Virus record (IMG/VR): IMGVR_UViG_3300025701_000055
Span: 1-23,679 of that record
Direction: 5' to 3' (one strand)
DNA: 23,679 bases
Origin: a virus
The notes beneath the pieces are model-generated. The model saw only the letters and a program-made list of their open reading frames with translations, ran no database searches and had not been told where the DNA came from. Shown piece after piece: positions 3,821-21,606 of the stretch. Position 1 is the stretch's first letter. Each line of letters begins with the position of its first letter. The translations under genes were made by a program, and so were the position numbers.

Positions 3821-4019
3821 GTTTTTACATTTAGTTTTATCGGCATATGTGGTGTTATTAATTTTAGACATACTCCGATCTTATTATCGTTACGACGAAC
3901 ATAAGTTTATGTCATTTGATAAGCCTACAGAGAAATGGTTTGATTTCTTTAAAGATGAACATAAATGGTCACTAGGTACTCTCATAGTGACACTGATATT
4001 AGGGATGTTATTCATATGA
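3813..4019 (+). CDS. Small two-helix membrane protein
   Basis: 68 residues. Hydrophobic helices lie at about residues 5-22 (HLVLSAYVVLLILDIL) and 53-68 (LGTLIVTLILGMLFI), separated by a charged loop of about 30 residues. The N-terminal Lys is weakly positive, so a hairpin with the loop in the cytoplasm or periplasm cannot be decided. It overlaps the preceding gene by 8 bases and the acyl-CoA dehydrogenase by 4 (ATGA). FadE of Escherichia coli is membrane-associated and the phage enzyme lacks that N-terminal segment, so a membrane partner role is conceivable. It could equally be holin-like. No motif decides. Confidence 0.65.
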   Translation: MDKFLHLVLSAYVVLLILDILRSYYRYDEHKFMSFDKPTEKWFDFFKDEHKWSLGTLIVTLILGMLFI

Positions 4020-5869
4020 TAAAAATGATAAAGAAAGTAATGCCTAAAATATCTGATACTGAACGTGCCGCACTTGAATGTGGCACAATCAGTATTGATG
4101 GTGATATATTCAAAGGAAATAAACCAGAAGTACGTAATCATCTTTCTTCTGTGCTCAATACAACCGAACAGAGATTCATCGATATTACTGTGCCTCAGTT
4201 GCTCGAACTTCAGACAGAGCATGGATATACAGAAGATAATAACTTGACACCACCTGTATGGGATTTTCTCAAAAAGAACAAGTTCTTTGCGATGATTATT
4301 CCTGTCGAGTATGGTGGGCTAGGGTTTTCTCCTTCTGCACAAAGTCAAGTTGTCACTAAGATTGCGTCTGCTGGTCATATCGGATTAGCAGTCACAGTAA
4401 TGGTTCCTAACTCTTTAGGTCCAGGTGAACTGTTGATGCACTATGGTACACAAGAACAACGTGACAAATATCTACCGAAACTTTCGTCAGGTGAAATGAT
4501 CCCATGTTTTGGATTGACAGGGTTATATAATGGTTCAGACGCCACAACATTAATCGATAATGCCAAGTCAATAGTCAAAAATGGTAAAGGCACGTATTCA
4601 GTCAATCTTAATAAACGATATATTACGTTAGCCCCTATTGCGGACCTTATCGGGATTGCTGTGAAAGTAGATGGTGAAATCACTTTATTTCTTATAGAAA
4701 GAGACCATCCTGGGCTACAGATTGGAGAAAGACATAATCCACTCGGTCAGCCATTTATGAATGGTACTATCAAAGGGCACATCGAACTCACTGATGAGCA
4801 TATCCTAGGCGGTAAAAAACAACTCGGAAAGGGTTGGCAAATGTTAGTTGAGTGTTTATCGGTTGGTCGTGCGATATCTTTACCTGCATTGGGTACAGCC
4901 GCATCTATCGTATCGGCAGTTGCGTCGGGTGCGTATGCACGTACACGTCAACAGTTCGGAATGCCTATCGCTAAAATGCAAGGCATACAAGAACCATTAG
5001 CAGATATTGCTTATCAGGCATATGTGAATACTGTAACACAAACCACAATCAACGGTGAACTACAAGCAGGTGAATCGCCTAGTGCGTTATCAGCGATGTG
5101 GAAGTATCAGTCAACCGAACGTGGGCGTATTGCTATCAATCATGCAATGGATGTAATGGCAGGTTCTGCGATACAAGAAGGACCTAATAACATTCTTGCT
5201 AATACCTATAAGAGTATGCCTATTGCGATTACTGTAGAAGGTGCGAATATTCTTTCACGTTCTTTAGTCACGTTCGGTGGTGGGCTTATGCGTTCGCACC
5301 CACATCTACGTAACTTGGTCGATTCGATACAAGATGAAAAAACTCTTTCGTTTTTAAAACATCTTTCATTAATGATTGGTCATACTGTGACAAACTTAGG
5401 TAAAGCACTTACCCGTAACGAATATGCATTATTTGCATTTACGAGTAATATGGTATTAACACTGGGTGCTAAGTATAAGCGTTCTGAATATATCAGTTCA
5501 CGTATGGCAGATATATTTTCGATACGTGTAATGCGTAGTGCTATTGACGAAGAACCCGAATCTGTTATTCGTGATTACTCACTGAAAAGATTACACAACG
5601 AAGAACTACAGGCATATAGAGACGTAGAGAATGAGTTACCTTTAGTTGCTGGTTTATTTGTTAGATTAGCACGTAAGATTAACTTTTTTAATACTAAACA
5701 TATCTCAGTAGAAGATAATGAAATGGCGGCTAATAGTATTACGTCTAAATCCACGTTTGTTAATAATATGATTAGTAAGATTCATATTTCAGGCAGACTC
5801 GCACAGTTGATTGACTGTTACACTAACGATACTCATGAACGAGAAGTTCAAGAAGTTGATAGTAAATAA
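4016..5869 (+). CDS. fadE: FadE-like acyl-CoA dehydrogenase (auxiliary metabolic gene)
   Basis: 617 residues from ATG 4016, overlapping the previous stop. FAD-dependent acyl-CoA dehydrogenases oxidise acyl-CoA to trans-2-enoyl-CoA in the first step of fatty-acid beta-oxidation. Stretches close to bacterial FadE are FFAMIIPVEYGGLGFS (90-105), TVMVPNSLGPGELLMHYGT (127-145), NKRYITLAPIADLIG (199-213), CLSVGRAISLPALGT (280-294), the second catalytic-domain region ARTRQQFGMPIAKMQGI (308-324), and PIAITVEGANILSRS (402-416). E408 corresponds to the general-base glutamate. FadE is about 815 residues; this version lacks the long N-terminal membrane region and has a shorter loop before NKRYITL, but it keeps a C-terminal extension of about 190 residues. 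The frame is intact throughout. It probably feeds host lipid catabolism during infection. The family assignment is strong; substrate length is unknown. Confidence 0.93.
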   Translation: MIKMIKKVMPKISDTERAALECGTISIDGDIFKGNKPEVRNHLSSVLNTTEQRFIDITVPQLLELQTEHGYTEDNNLTPPVWDFLKKNKFFAMIIPVEYGGLGFSPSAQSQVVTKIASAGHIGLAVTVMVPNSLGPGELLMHYGTQEQRDKYLPKLSSGEMIPCFGLTGLYNGSDATTLIDNAKSIVKNGKGTYSVNLNKRYITLAPIADLIGIAVKVDGEITLFLIERDHPGLQIGERHNPLGQPFMNGTIKGHIELTDEHILGGKKQLGKGWQMLVECLSVGRAISLPALGTAASIVSAVASGAYARTRQQFGMPIAKMQGIQEPLADIAYQAYVNTVTQTTINGELQAGESPSALSAMWKYQSTERGRIAINHAMDVMAGSAIQEGPNNILANTYKSMPIAITVEGANILSRSLVTFGGGLMRSHPHLRNLVDSIQDEKTLSFLKHLSLMIGHTVTNLGKALTRNEYALFAFTSNMVLTLGAKYKRSEYISSRMADIFSIRVMRSAIDEEPESVIRDYSLKRLHNEELQAYRDVENELPLVAGLFVRLARKINFFNTKHISVEDNEMAANSITSKSTFVNNMISKIHISGRLAQLIDCYTNDTHEREVQEVDSK

Positions 5870-9155: not shown

Positions 9156-9650
9156 ATGCATAAAAATAAATACGATGTCAAAGTCTTAAAAGTAGTAGAC
9201 GGTGACACAGTAGATGTAGATATCAACTTAGGATTTGGTATCGTATTAACGGATGAGCGTGTACGTGTCATGGGTATCGATACACCAGAATCACGTACAT
9301 CTGATAAAGTCGAAGACTTGTTTGGTGAAGCCGCTAAGGCTCGTCTCAAAGAACTTATGAAAGGTCAAGTCAAACTTATCACAACAGAAGATAAGCATGG
9401 CGAAGATATGAAAGGTAAGTTTGGGCGAGTACTCGGTGACTTCGAAGTATATGACCATAAGCACGATAGATGGGCTTGTGTCACTGATATTCTAATCGAA
9501 GAAGGGCACGCAGTTGCATACTTCGGTGGTTCGAAAGATGAGATACAGGCGAAGCATATGGTTAATCGTCAGAAACTATTGCGTGAAGGAATCGTAACAC
9601 ACGAAGACTACGCAAAGGCTGAGAAGATTATGGAGCGTAAAAGAAAATGA
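9156..9650 (+). CDS. Staphylococcal nuclease-like thermonuclease
   Basis: 164 residues with the SNase (TNase) OB-fold signature: DGDTVDVDI at 15-23, RVMGIDTPES at 37-46 (R37, D42 and E45 match catalytic or calcium-binding Arg, Asp and Glu), and KGKFGRVLGD at 86-95, where R91 matches the second catalytic arginine. The helix ILIEEGHAVAYFG follows. Such enzymes cleave DNA and RNA to 3'-phosphates with calcium. There is no signal peptide, so the phage enzyme would work in the cytoplasm, perhaps to degrade host nucleic acid. GAGGA site before ATG; ATGA overlap with the lipoprotein gene. Confidence 0.92.
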   Translation: MHKNKYDVKVLKVVDGDTVDVDINLGFGIVLTDERVRVMGIDTPESRTSDKVEDLFGEAAKARLKELMKGQVKLITTEDKHGEDMKGKFGRVLGDFEVYDHKHDRWACVTDILIEEGHAVAYFGGSKDEIQAKHMVNRQKLLREGIVTHEDYAKAEKIMERKRK

Positions 9651-10021
9651 TTAGGTCAGCAATGCTAGGTTTAGCACTAATGATATCGGGTTGTTCAATC
9701 ACAGACGAGATACCATCGTTTCATGATGACAACGAAAACAATGCAATCATTGATGTTGTGTATGCAATCCATAAACTCGACTGTAAAAGTCAGTTTGCGA
9801 AACGACACGTGATGCGTATATACGATAAAACTACTTGGTTGAAGTTCTATGTACAATATAAGGGTTCGAAAGACGTAGAGAAGTTGATTGGTCCATTTGA
9901 ACAAACACTGACAGGTCTTTATAATAAGCCAAATGCAAGTGTTAAGTATTGCGAACTGAAACGTAAGAGTCTATTCAAACAATCAGAAAAGATTGCAGTA
10001 GCGATTATGTCGAGGTACTAA
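9647..10021 (+). CDS. Lipoprotein
   Basis: 124 residues. The N-terminus MIRSAMLGLALMISGCSITD has a positive start, a hydrophobic core and the lipobox ISGC, so Cys16 should be lipidated by the signal peptidase II pathway. Asp at +4/+5 rather than +2 suggests outer-membrane sorting. The mature part is soluble with Lys/Arg and two further Cys (DCKS, KYCELKR). Phage lipoproteins commonly block receptors or DNA entry (superinfection exclusion) or act as outer-membrane spanins. It lies among early-type genes, which favours exclusion; that is an inference. Overlaps the nuclease gene by 4 bases. Confidence 0.8.
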   Translation: MIRSAMLGLALMISGCSITDEIPSFHDDNENNAIIDVVYAIHKLDCKSQFAKRHVMRIYDKTTWLKFYVQYKGSKDVEKLIGPFEQTLTGLYNKPNASVKYCELKRKSLFKQSEKIAVAIMSRY

Positions 10022-18266: not shown

Positions 18267-18614
18267 ATGGCTGATAATAAAAAGATTACTATTGATAGTG
18301 ACGGTTCATTAGCAAATGCTGATGTAGATGGTGATGGTCATATCACTGAAGAAGAACTGCAAATGCACCTTGAGTTCAAGCGTAAAGAACTAGAAGACCA
18401 AGATGCTCAACGTGATGCTATTCGTAAAATGGCATGGTTCTCATTGGGTGGCTTACTAGTCTATCCAGTGGGCATTGCAGTAACAGCAGGGTTTGGGTTA
18501 GATACTGCGGCAAATCTTATTGCTGATATCGCACCTACTTACTTTGCATCTATCGCAGTATTAGTATCAGCATTCTTTGCATCTGATGCTGTAAAAGATA
18601 AAACTAAGAAATAG
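18267..18614 (+). CDS. EF-hand membrane protein, holin-like
   Basis: 115 residues. The loop D19-VDGDGHITEE-E30 is a complete 12-residue EF-hand (D, D, D, G, I, E at the expected places). An amphipathic helix (LQMHLEFKRKELEDQDAQR) and two membrane helices at about 55-77 (AWFSLGGLLVYPVGIAVTAG) and 84-107 (APTYFASIAVLVSAFFAS) follow, then a Lys-rich tail. The size and two-helix topology fit a holin. The calcium loop is an unusual addition that could make it respond to divalent ions. Late operon, directly before another small hydrophobic gene. Holin is an inference. Confidence 0.75.
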   Translation: MADNKKITIDSDGSLANADVDGDGHITEEELQMHLEFKRKELEDQDAQRDAIRKMAWFSLGGLLVYPVGIAVTAGFGLDTAANLIADIAPTYFASIAVLVSAFFASDAVKDKTKK

Positions 18615-18785: not shown

Positions 18786-18810
18786 ACTTTATTACTCACT
18801 CATCATTTTA

Positions 18811-18838
18811 AAATCACCTTAACGGGTGATTTTTTTTT
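18811..18838 (+). terminator. Rho-independent terminator
   Basis: AAATCACC (18811-18818) pairs with GGTGATTT (18825-18832) around TTAACG, leading into a T run to 18838. Separates the two late units. Confidence 0.9.
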
Positions 18839-18857: not shown

Positions 18858-18865
18858 TATAAATA
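18858..18865 (+). promoter_or_regulatory. T4-type late promoter for the exported cassette
   Basis: TATAAATA, exact consensus, 19 bases after the terminator and about 35 before ATG 18900. Confidence 0.85.
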
Positions 18866-18899: not shown

Positions 18900-19472
18900 A
18901 TGAAAATGAAACATTTACTCGCTTTTAGTGTTGCGTGTTTACTCGTTTTTAGTGCAAGCGCACAAGAAGCAGAACCAGTTAGCGACGTGATTAAAACTGA
19001 AAGTAAAACAGATAGTACTGTAACGACGAATGGCAATATGACAACTACATTGAAGTCACCGCCACCGTCTGCTATTAGCCCAACAATCAATACGTCTAAC
19101 TCAGACTTATGTACGTTCGGTGTAGCAGGAGCAGTACAGACACAGATACTTGGTATCTCAATGGGTTCACAGGTCACAGACTTGAACTGTGAACGATTGA
19201 AAAACGCAAAGACCCTATATGATATGGGCATGAAAGTTGCGGCAGTATCGGTAATGTGTCAAGATGAACGTGTATTTGATGCTATGTGGAATGCTGGCAC
19301 ACCTTGCCCTAAAGACGGGCTAATCGGTGAAGAAGCAAAACTTGCTTGGCAACTTGCTGAAGACTCGATCCCTAAACAGGGTGAAGAGAAAAAGGAGAAA
19401 ACAGTAGATGAAGAAACTACTGGTTGGTTGGGCGCTGTTGGCGGCGTTCTACTCTTGCTACTCTTACTCTAA
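18900..19472 (+). CDS. Exported protein with C-terminal membrane anchor (cassette gene 1)
   Basis: 190 residues. Signal peptide MKMKHLLAFSVACLLVFSASA, likely cut after ASA (residue 21). ATG 18906 is an equal alternative start; neither has a good ribosome site. A Thr/Ser/Pro-rich linker follows to about residue 65, then a compact domain with four Cys (DLCTFG, LNCERL, VMCQDE, TPCPKD) and the block KTLYDMGMKVAAVSVMCQD. An acidic/basic linker ends in GWLGAVGGVLLLLLLL, a membrane anchor at the very C-terminus. A periplasmic domain tethered to the inner membrane is likely. I recall the Cys domain from marine T4-like phages. Unknown function. Overlaps the next gene by 65 bases. Confidence 0.8.
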   Translation: MKMKHLLAFSVACLLVFSASAQEAEPVSDVIKTESKTDSTVTTNGNMTTTLKSPPPSAISPTINTSNSDLCTFGVAGAVQTQILGISMGSQVTDLNCERLKNAKTLYDMGMKVAAVSVMCQDERVFDAMWNAGTPCPKDGLIGEEAKLAWQLAEDSIPKQGEEKKEKTVDEETTGWLGAVGGVLLLLLLL

Positions 19473-20289
19473 CGATTACGTCTTCGGTACAACCACTAAC
19501 GCAACTGCGAGTGGTTATAACTGGGTAATGCAGAATGTCCTACCGCAACAGGCAGGGCTAGAAGTAACAGGTATCATATACAGTTACAGAGCAGTTAAAG
19601 ACCCAGAGACAAATATGATTGTGTATGTTCAGAATGAAGATGCGCAGAATCCTGGTCAGTATATCTTTAGAGAAAAAGATGATTGGTCACAGAGACCAGG
19701 CAAGACAATAAACAAGTACATCCCGCAAAGTAACGTATTGATTGATAGATGGGGTGACGGAAGTATAGAAGTACAAGGTGAAGGTTCAGTAGAGGACGCA
19801 CTGGTTACATATGACTACAGATATGATCCTTGTTTTGATCCTCAAAGCGATCCATCTTGCCCAGGCTACGTACCGCCTATACCTGATATACCAGAACCAG
19901 ACTTGTCTGCAATCTATGAGCAGAATGATAAGTTCATAGAAGAGAACGAAGCAAAGAAAGAAGTTGATCCTGACGATAGTGATGAAGAAGAAAAAGCACG
20001 AAAACGTGCAATGGTTCAACGTAATAAAGAAAGATTAGAAGTTGCACTCGGTGCAGTGAACTCAGCACTTATGACTGCTGAAGCACAAGCACAATATGCA
20101 ACTCTTATGAGTTTGAGTATATTACCTAATGCGTACACAGTACAAACAATACCAGTCACTACGTATGAGGATACAGTCATATTAAAAGACTCAAACTTGC
20201 CTGATAACCCAAAGGCAAAACGTGTAGGATTGGCACAACAACTAAAGCATGAGCAAATGGTGAACTCACAGTATGAGAAAACAAAATAA
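19408..20289 (+). CDS. Exported protein (cassette gene 2)
   Basis: 293 residues. Signal peptide MKKLLVGWALLAAFYSCYS is encoded by the same DNA as the Leu-rich anchor of the preceding protein. The mature domain is beta-rich (TGIIYSYRAVKDPETNMI, GDGSIEVQGEGSVEDALV), followed by DPCFDPQSDPSCPGY with a likely disulfide and a Pro-rich hinge (PPIPDIPEPDLS). Next comes an acidic/basic helical rod (EENEAKKEVDPDDSDEEEK) and an Ala-rich helix (VALGAVNSALMTAEAQAQ). AGGAG is ten bases before ATG. A helical rod behind a globular head is compatible with a surface or periplasmic structural part. No known family identified. Confidence 0.8.
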   Translation: MKKLLVGWALLAAFYSCYSYSNDYVFGTTTNATASGYNWVMQNVLPQQAGLEVTGIIYSYRAVKDPETNMIVYVQNEDAQNPGQYIFREKDDWSQRPGKTINKYIPQSNVLIDRWGDGSIEVQGEGSVEDALVTYDYRYDPCFDPQSDPSCPGYVPPIPDIPEPDLSAIYEQNDKFIEENEAKKEVDPDDSDEEEKARKRAMVQRNKERLEVALGAVNSALMTAEAQAQYATLMSLSILPNAYTVQTIPVTTYEDTVILKDSNLPDNPKAKRVGLAQQLKHEQMVNSQYEKTK

Positions 20290-20301
20290 GGAAAAACAAT
20301 A

Positions 20302-20802
20302 ATGTTTAAGAAAGCACTGTTAACATCGGCATTTGTTGCGTGTACAGCACAAGCACAAGTTGCTGATGTACCGATTACAGGTAACGTCGCATCTAAGTGT
20401 GTTATTACTACTGACACACCCGGAGTGTTCGGAAACCCTGTTTCTAATAAACTAAGCACACTGCCTACTGACGGTGGTGTTCTACCTATCGTTCGTTATG
20501 ATATCATTGAAGCAGATTCATATAAAGCACATATCACATGGCCGCAATCGTTCACTACTTCACCAGTATTGAATGACGTAGTAAACTGGACAGGTGATGT
20601 TGAACTTGCTGAAGTATCAGTCGCAGAAATGGCAGACTTTGAAACTAACAAAGTACAATGGAACAACACCACAGAGTATGACTTAACTATTGCTGGTTCA
20701 GCATGGTTCAAGATTACTTCTGTTGCTGATTATGGTTTTGATAAGTCATTTCCTGGCGGTCAGTATCGTGCGGCAGTGATAGCAGAATGTATCGCAAAAT
20801 AA
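20302..20802 (+). CDS. Exported beta-rich, pilin/SCPU-like protein (cassette gene 3)
   Basis: 166 residues. Signal peptide MFKKALLTSAFVACTAQA. The mature protein starts about QVADVPITGNVASKCVI, is nearly all beta by eye, and ends SFPGGQYRAAVIAECIAK. One Cys near each end could form a disulfide linking the first and last strands, as in Ig-like pilins and SCPU (spore coat U) subunits secreted by chaperone-usher systems. I recall close relatives in T4-like marine phages annotated only as hypothetical. The resemblance to pilins is in layout only. Overlaps the next gene by 16 bases. AAGGA ribosome site. Confidence 0.8.
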   Translation: MFKKALLTSAFVACTAQAQVADVPITGNVASKCVITTDTPGVFGNPVSNKLSTLPTDGGVLPIVRYDIIEADSYKAHITWPQSFTTSPVLNDVVNWTGDVELAEVSVAEMADFETNKVQWNNTTEYDLTIAGSAWFKITSVADYGFDKSFPGGQYRAAVIAECIAK

Positions 20803-21167
20803 TAATAGGGATACTATTATGTCTAAGTGGGTCAGTAATGGCCCACGAATGGACACCTACATATCCCAAAATGAAATACTCGTTTATAGACGGTATCATG
20901 GTTACGACTATGGATCTATTCAATAAACGAGAAGATATCTCTTGGTATGAAATAGGAGTGTATGATAAAGACTTCAATCTTATAAAGCATAGTGTACAAG
21001 GCGGTAAAGTACAGTACGTACCACCTCTACAGCGTAAGAGTGTTGACGTTTACATACGCAGTAAAGATATGGATAAAGCAACATATATTTGTTCAAAATC
21101 TAAGATTATTTCTGAGTCAGAAAAAGCAACTGTTGTTGCATCAAGGATATGTTCTAAAATAAAGTGA
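20787..21167 (+). CDS. Exported protein resembling a one-domain PapD-type chaperone (cassette gene 4)
   Basis: 126 residues. Signal peptide MYRKIIIGILLCLSGSVMA, mature start HEWTPTYPKMKYSFIDG. The pattern VTTMDLFNKREDISWYEIGV, then YVPPLQRKSVDVYIRSKD and ATYICSKSKI recalls the first Ig-like domain of periplasmic pilus chaperones (V-x-N ... PP ... Q-x-[LV]-R), in the same order as PapD. The second chaperone domain is absent, since the family is about twice this length. Two Cys near the end (YIC, RIC). It follows the beta-rich gene with a 16-base overlap, as chaperone and subunit genes often do. Chaperone activity is a hypothesis. Confidence 0.72.
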   Translation: MYRKIIIGILLCLSGSVMAHEWTPTYPKMKYSFIDGIMVTTMDLFNKREDISWYEIGVYDKDFNLIKHSVQGGKVQYVPPLQRKSVDVYIRSKDMDKATYICSKSKIISESEKATVVASRICSKIK

Positions 21168-21177
21168 GTGATTGATT

Positions 21178-21606
21178 GTGAAATATTTCATATTGATGTT
21201 GACAATGGTAAGTTCAGTAGTGTATGCAAATAACAGTTCATTGAACTTAAACATACCAACATCACCTCAGAGTTATGCATCTGACCAGTTTAGATCCGGT
21301 GACATGGATTGTAGACAAGCAATAGGTTCATCAACCAATGTTGAGTTCGGTGTTGTTGGAGTCATGAATCAAAACGATCCATTTCAATCAAACATTGGTT
21401 TACCTAATGAAGTTACGACTGATGATATGATGAAAGATATTGGTGTGTATGCACGTATCACAATACCTATCGGTGCACCCAAAGAACGTATCGATTGTAA
21501 TGCATTCTTTAAACTAGAGTTGGAACACCGTAGACTTGAAATACTAAAACTGCAACAAGAGATTACTAATCTTCGTAGAATGCAGTTCGAAGGAGACGAC
21601 AACTAA
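21178..21606 (+). CDS. Exported protein (cassette gene 5)
   Basis: 142 residues from GTG 21178; a TTG at 21172 is less likely. Signal peptide MKYFILMLTMVSSVVYA, then NNSSLNLNIPTSPQSY. DCRQAIGSSTNVEFGVVGV and GVYARITIPIGAPKERIDC are beta-strand-like and carry one Cys each, so a disulfide is likely. The end is a helix (LELEHRRLEILKLQQEITNL) that may form a coiled coil. I recall similar secreted proteins in T4-like marine phages, unknown function. TAATG overlap with the next gene. Confidence 0.78.
   Translation: MKYFILMLTMVSSVVYANNSSLNLNIPTSPQSYASDQFRSGDMDCRQAIGSSTNVEFGVVGVMNQNDPFQSNIGLPNEVTTDDMMKDIGVYARITIPIGAPKERIDCNAFFKLELEHRRLEILKLQQEITNLRRMQFEGDDN

Follow-up and report, generated by a model that had tools for sequence, protein, structure and literature searches.

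Organization of the six-gene unit

The window considered here, a 23.7-kb virus record taken as a whole, is a fragment of a T4-like marine phage, as judged from its late promoters and neighbouring genes. On its plus strand, five consecutive genes that are tightly packed or overlapping, P1 to P5 (18900-21606), are followed by a sixth, P6, and together these form a single unit. The left border is a terminator-like stem-loop with a T run (18810-18833, +), followed by the T4-type late promoter of the unit, TATAAATA (18858-18865, +). P1 (18900-19472, +; PHROG 20531) encodes a Sec signal peptide, a Pro-rich stretch, four conserved Cys, and a C-terminal hydrophobic anchor, and P2 (19408-20289, +) encodes a Sec signal peptide, a Cys pair, a charged stretch, and a conserved C-terminus. 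P3 (20302-20802, +; weak match to PHROG 25895) and P4 (20787-21167, +) each combine a Sec signal peptide with a predicted Ig-type fold, an Ig-like beta sandwich in P3 and a single PapD-like domain in P4. P5 (21178-21606, +; weak match to PHROG 37374), also with a Sec signal peptide, starts at a GTG at 21178, with an alternative TTG start at 21172; in its sequence, two conserved segments look like strands and one at the C-terminus like a helix. P6 (21606-22163, +) has a predicted topology of an N-terminal transmembrane (TM) segment and a long coiled coil ending in a C-terminal motif with an invariant NPL, features found in both the sequence and the family consensus. A preliminary description of this DNA had located the first five genes correctly, but its right end at 21606 was too short, P6 being part of the unit.

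The P1 and P2 genes share 65 nt (19408-19472), read in different frames, and this stretch encodes both the hydrophobic tail of P1 and the P2 signal peptide. The overlap, 62-149 nt long, is kept in all 147 loci measured. The promoter is likewise conserved: of 108 distinct loci, 40 have TATAAATA in the 200 nt ahead of P1, mostly 27-46 nt before the P1 start, compared with 2.1% of random stretches. Taken by itself, the number of TATAAATA copies in the window is unremarkable (5 observed against 2.0 expected, 6/100 shuffles). The stem-loop and the conserved promoter placement bear out the original view that a terminator and a late promoter bound the unit on the left. Upstream, at 18267-18614, the window encodes a protein with an EF-hand-like segment followed by two TM segments; its family, which may represent a holin, neighbours the module in 61 of 105 loci.

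Export signals and conserved cysteines

Signal peptides were called by a simple home-made rule, which replaced a looser one that had flagged 39% of random ORFs. Six of the 50 genes in the window were positive, five of them being P1-P5 in a row (permutation P = 0.0001), and within each family 80-93% of distinct members were positive, compared with 65 of 899 flanking genes (7%). Conserved Cys were found at C71/C97/C120/C136 in P1, C142/C151 in P2, C33/C163 in P3, C102/C122 in P4, and C47/C109 in P5. The run of five consecutive signal peptides noted at the outset is therefore recovered by rule, and the paired Cys initially reported for several of the products extend to every family from P1 to P5, with four Cys in P1. 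The membrane anchor ascribed to one of the proteins would correspond to the C-terminus of P1, a conserved Gly/Leu hydrophobic tail. Homology between P1 and P5, both of which have a Cys-hairpin-Cys-helix look, was considered and rejected, as hhalign aligned their signal peptides only.

Predicted folds of P3 and P4

P3 and P4 were modelled as monomers by AlphaFold2. The P4 model (pLDDT 91.7) is a single Ig-type, PapD-like domain, for which Foldseek retrieved VAP/MSP domains together with PapD, SafB, FaeE, DraB, and Caf1M at E values of 8e-5 to 1e-3 (2e-4 to 1e-3 for the latter five). The best VIA-align match is FimC domain 1, with a Z score of 10.8 and 2.9 A over 100 residues (P4 19-126 on FimC 1-114), and other folds follow closely, including a chitosanase Ig-like domain (Z 10.4) and MSP domains (Z 9.7); the fold alone is therefore no proof of a chaperone. 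In the model, P4 has the fold of a PapD-like domain 1 and ends with the G1 strand, and a second Ig domain is absent, the protein stopping after one, at about 107 mature residues. FGL chaperones carry a disulfide between the F1 and G1 strands (PMC4133393). In the P4 model, the invariant C102 and C122 fall on the two final strands, at the place of this disulfide, and could form a bond, while the P4 loop, at 13 residues, is FGS-like.

The P3 model (pLDDT 91.2) is an Ig-like sandwich preceded by an unstructured N-terminal extension (approximately residues 19-32) devoid of strands. Its four best Foldseek matches are chaperone-usher pilins (PapG/FimF/CfaB pilins; E 0.003-0.005). VIA-align gave no Z of 8 or above for P3, its rows being other Ig-like adhesins, with chaperone-usher pilins not among them, and P3 matched nothing in BFVD below E 0.001. 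Profile searches against solved structures in the PDB returned nothing. Membership of the PapD or pilin families by sequence was rejected on several grounds: Pfam contained no pilin or pilus-chaperone match for P3 or P4, hhalign of P4 against seven E. coli K-12 chaperones gave a probability of 0.4%, hhalign against eighteen E. coli K-12 pilins was negative, and a PSSM of the G1 donor-strand motif did not score above background on P4. The resemblance to chaperone-usher systems therefore rests on predicted fold, gene pairing, and export, and descent is not proven.

Conservation of the unit across phage lineages

Loci were fetched from IMG/VR by P1 (80 loci) and, as another set, by P3, 158 in all, and iterated HMM searches were run over all of their ORFs. 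Many of the surveyed contigs are related (105 are distinct), and the contigs are fragments. All six families are present in nearly every locus; in 157 loci the order P1-P2-P3-P4-P5-P6 is constant, and no member is missing wherever the contig has room, with an extra gene inserted ahead of P6 in a few loci. Retrieval was by P1 or P3 alone, which makes the finding of the other four families an independent result.

T4-like phages carry the block, as does a second lineage with different flanking genes. Loci with the late promoter neighbour ThyX, DUF932, a 2OG oxygenase-like protein, and other T4-like genes, and loci without it neighbour TerS, TerL, a GH19 endolysin, and basic small proteins; of 20 long contigs, themselves fragments, 2 contained the T4-type capsid gene gp23. 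Given two lineages with different neighbours, the block was most likely transferred as a whole between phage types. A bacterial origin was rejected, as matches among genome contigs were scattered across bins with no relation to one another, a pattern that would fit phage contigs binned wrongly, and a plasmid search yielded one weak match. A literature search retrieved no report of the six-gene module or of a phage-encoded PapD-like chaperone, which is weak evidence of absence.

Sub-modules in other phages

The unit joins two sub-modules, P1/P2-like/P6 and P3-P4-P5, each of which is also found alone. Relatives of P1 and P6 with a variable exported protein between them, and lacking P3-P5, are present in Pelagibacter phage HTVC115P, Roseobacter phage CRP-810, and an uncultured podovirus; the middle protein of HTVC115P is a weak P2 relative (E 3e-5). 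In Pelagibacter phage HTVC023P, P1 is followed further on by gp48, a P6-like protein with a TM segment, a coil, and a terminal NPL, which the P6 profile did not reach and whose gene overlaps that of an M15 endolysin. In CRP-810, a small lipoprotein encoded beside P1 (locus L162, 4615-4875) carries a weak P1-like motif (E 8e-6).

At least four types of Vibrio phage carry P3-P4-P5, with order kept and without P1, P2, and P6, and hhalign shows the Vibrio and marine versions to be clearly homologous (E 7e-34 for P4 and 4e-25 for P3). The Vibrio cassette lies just 3′ of a phrog_10818 gene, which is putatively of tail type, a label derived from its position and sequence, its PHROG carrying no function. 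P3 and P4 of phage pVp-1 each matched 179 phage records with the same host breakdown, and the phrog_10818 gene had 257 matches. Intact ORFs that are unannotated in their records encode P4 in Vibrio phage 1.205.O (locus L175, 4001-4399) and P5 in Vibrio phage D96a (locus L173, 4294-4683). In Vibrio phage VF16 (locus L168, 3734-4294), P5 is fused to a different N-terminal part, and P3 and P4 were undetected, as if the cassette were decaying. A P5 relative also lies between two small exported proteins in the Klebsiella jumbo phage Eowyn (locus L166, 4631-5884), and these may be counterparts of P4 and P3 in a changed order.

Comparison with known systems

Pelagiphages carry a curli or type VIII secretion module (CsgG, CsgF, CsgA/B) as a block common to unrelated phage families (PMC9599517, PMC7029224, PMC9004378). 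The likeness lies in a multi-gene exported envelope or surface module shared as a block by marine phages, whereas P1-P6 differs in having no recognised CsgG/CsgF-like protein, in the Ig-type folds predicted for P3 and P4, and in the T4-type late promoter at P1. Curli identity was considered first because of the habitat and was rejected, as Pfam and PHROG scans of the unit proteins gave no CsgG/CsgF match. With chaperone-usher pili (FimC/PapD plus pilin), the modelled P4 shares the fold and extent of chaperone domain 1, and P3 is an Ig-like exported partner encoded beside it. However, P4 has one domain instead of two, there is no detectable sequence homology, no conserved basic residue was seen at the R8 position, and no gene for an outer-membrane usher (about 800 residues) was found in the unit or recurring around the loci. 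Two-component spanins (Rz/Rz1) share the topology predicted for P6 and a frequent lysis-gene neighbourhood, but P1-P6 has five further exported proteins, and no lipobox protein of the o-spanin kind was seen among P1-P5. The exclusion proteins T5 Llp and T4 Sp/Imm are likewise made by phages and act on the host envelope as exported or membrane proteins; they are single small proteins, unlike the six-gene unit.

Proposed function and alternative explanations

P1-P6 most likely specify a late envelope-modifying complex. We tentatively favour, at somewhat less than an even chance, a late-expressed operon whose complex would most likely block adsorption or exclude superinfection. The products would assemble in the envelope of the infected cell, either in its periplasm and outer membrane or on its surface, and P4, by its modelled single PapD-like domain, may act as a dedicated folding partner that stabilises P3. 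P5 and P1 would form the outer-membrane or surface part, and P6, anchored in the inner membrane, would link this part across the periplasm together with P2. Late in infection, the finished complex would alter the envelope or cell surface and so keep virions, whether released or competing, from adsorbing to spent cells. Pointing this way are the late promoter, five exported Cys-paired proteins accompanied by a TM/coiled-coil protein, the invariant order in two lineages, the two sub-modules, the matching tally of 179 Vibrio phages for P3 and for P4, and the predicted Ig folds of P3 and P4. The P3-P5 cassette also stands 3′ of a putative tail-type gene, a type of site known for exclusion genes; in T5, the llp exclusion gene adjoins the receptor-binding gene of the phage. 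Against this reading stand the lack of sequence similarity of P3 and P4 to pilins and pilus chaperones, the nearly as good fold matches of P4 to MSP and chitosanase domains, the VIA-align scores of P3 below Z 8, the missing usher, the lack of a function for phrog_10818, and the many loci beside endolysin and possible holin genes, which would also fit lysis.

In a lysis apparatus, P6 would be an inner-membrane spanin-like protein and P1, P2, and P5 would act on the outer-membrane side, the module rupturing or weakening the outer membrane at the end of infection. This account, possible but on balance unlikely, draws on the i-spanin-like topology predicted for P6 and on gene neighbourhoods: the overlap of the P6-like gene with the M15 endolysin gene in HTVC023P, P1 and P6 relatives near lysozyme/M15 genes in other phages, 11 loci with a GH19 endolysin close by and 61 with the 2-TM protein, and a holin and an endolysin near P3-P5 in Vibrio phages. 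It sits uneasily with a Vibrio cassette that has no P6, with the separate Rz-like spanin of the T5-like VF16, with the absence of an o-spanin-like lipoprotein from the unit, and with a set of six proteins, including an Ig-fold pair, that far exceeds what known spanins need. An extracellular fibre or adhesin, with P3 as pilin-like subunit, P4 as chaperone, and P5 as usher substitute, might aggregate infected cells or catch new hosts, as in the pelagiphage curli proposal. The Ig folds of P3 and P4, the free N-terminal extension of P3, its best Foldseek matches, and the example set by phage curli genes, which have passed between phage families as a block, are consistent with such a structure, but the weak P3 fold match, the missing usher and sequence homology, and the lack of a recognised CsgG/CsgF-like gene in the unit make it a poor candidate. 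We regard as rather speculative a related scheme for marine and Vibrio phages, a minimal chaperone-subunit pathway that does without an usher: P4, as a one-domain PapD-like chaperone, would load the Ig-fold subunit P3 onto a phage-made outer-membrane platform of P5/P1, tied to the inner membrane by P6, and a surface structure would be built on the infected cell.

The late promoter and the tail-type neighbour of the Vibrio cassette could also suggest virion proteins that mature in the periplasm or join the particle as the cell lyses. Virions of tailed phages are assembled in the cytoplasm, so signal peptides on all five proteins, as well as their Cys pattern, argue against this view; a literature search found no supporting proteomics, and we consider it very improbable. 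That unrelated passenger genes stand together by chance accords with the separate occurrence of the two halves in other phages but is contradicted by the survey, in which two lineages keep an invariant six-gene order without losses, and it hardly deserves credence. The preliminary description had proposed one system, made late and acting on the envelope or surface, and had called for a survey of co-occurrence and order. The six families found together in one order across 157 loci, the signal peptides, the late promoter, and the lysis and tail neighbourhoods all back that proposal. It had also held that independent occurrence of the families would speak against a single system; sub-modules do exist apart, but single stray genes were not found. 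Among these candidate roles, we place a late one in blocking adsorption or in exclusion slightly ahead of lysis and far ahead of a fibre or virion role.

A six-gene envelope module kept intact in two phage types must give a strong benefit, although its families are without assigned function. Were adsorption block its role, it would be a new multi-protein exclusion system; outer-membrane breakage would make it a new route of lysis, and a fibre would make it a second phage surface-appendage system beside curli. Cultured Vibrio phages, among them pVp-1 and members of the Thalassa/Ceto group, carry P3-P4-P5, which already makes the question accessible to laboratory experiments.

Other genes in the window

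A lipoprotein with Cys is encoded at 9647-10021; where its family is found with the module, this is mostly in the lineage with the late promoter (18 of 22 loci). At 3965-5869 (+), the window carries a complete acyl-CoA dehydrogenase gene of the FadE type (Pfam PF02771, PF02770, and PF00441, with a weak PF09317), which is an unusual auxiliary gene for a phage.
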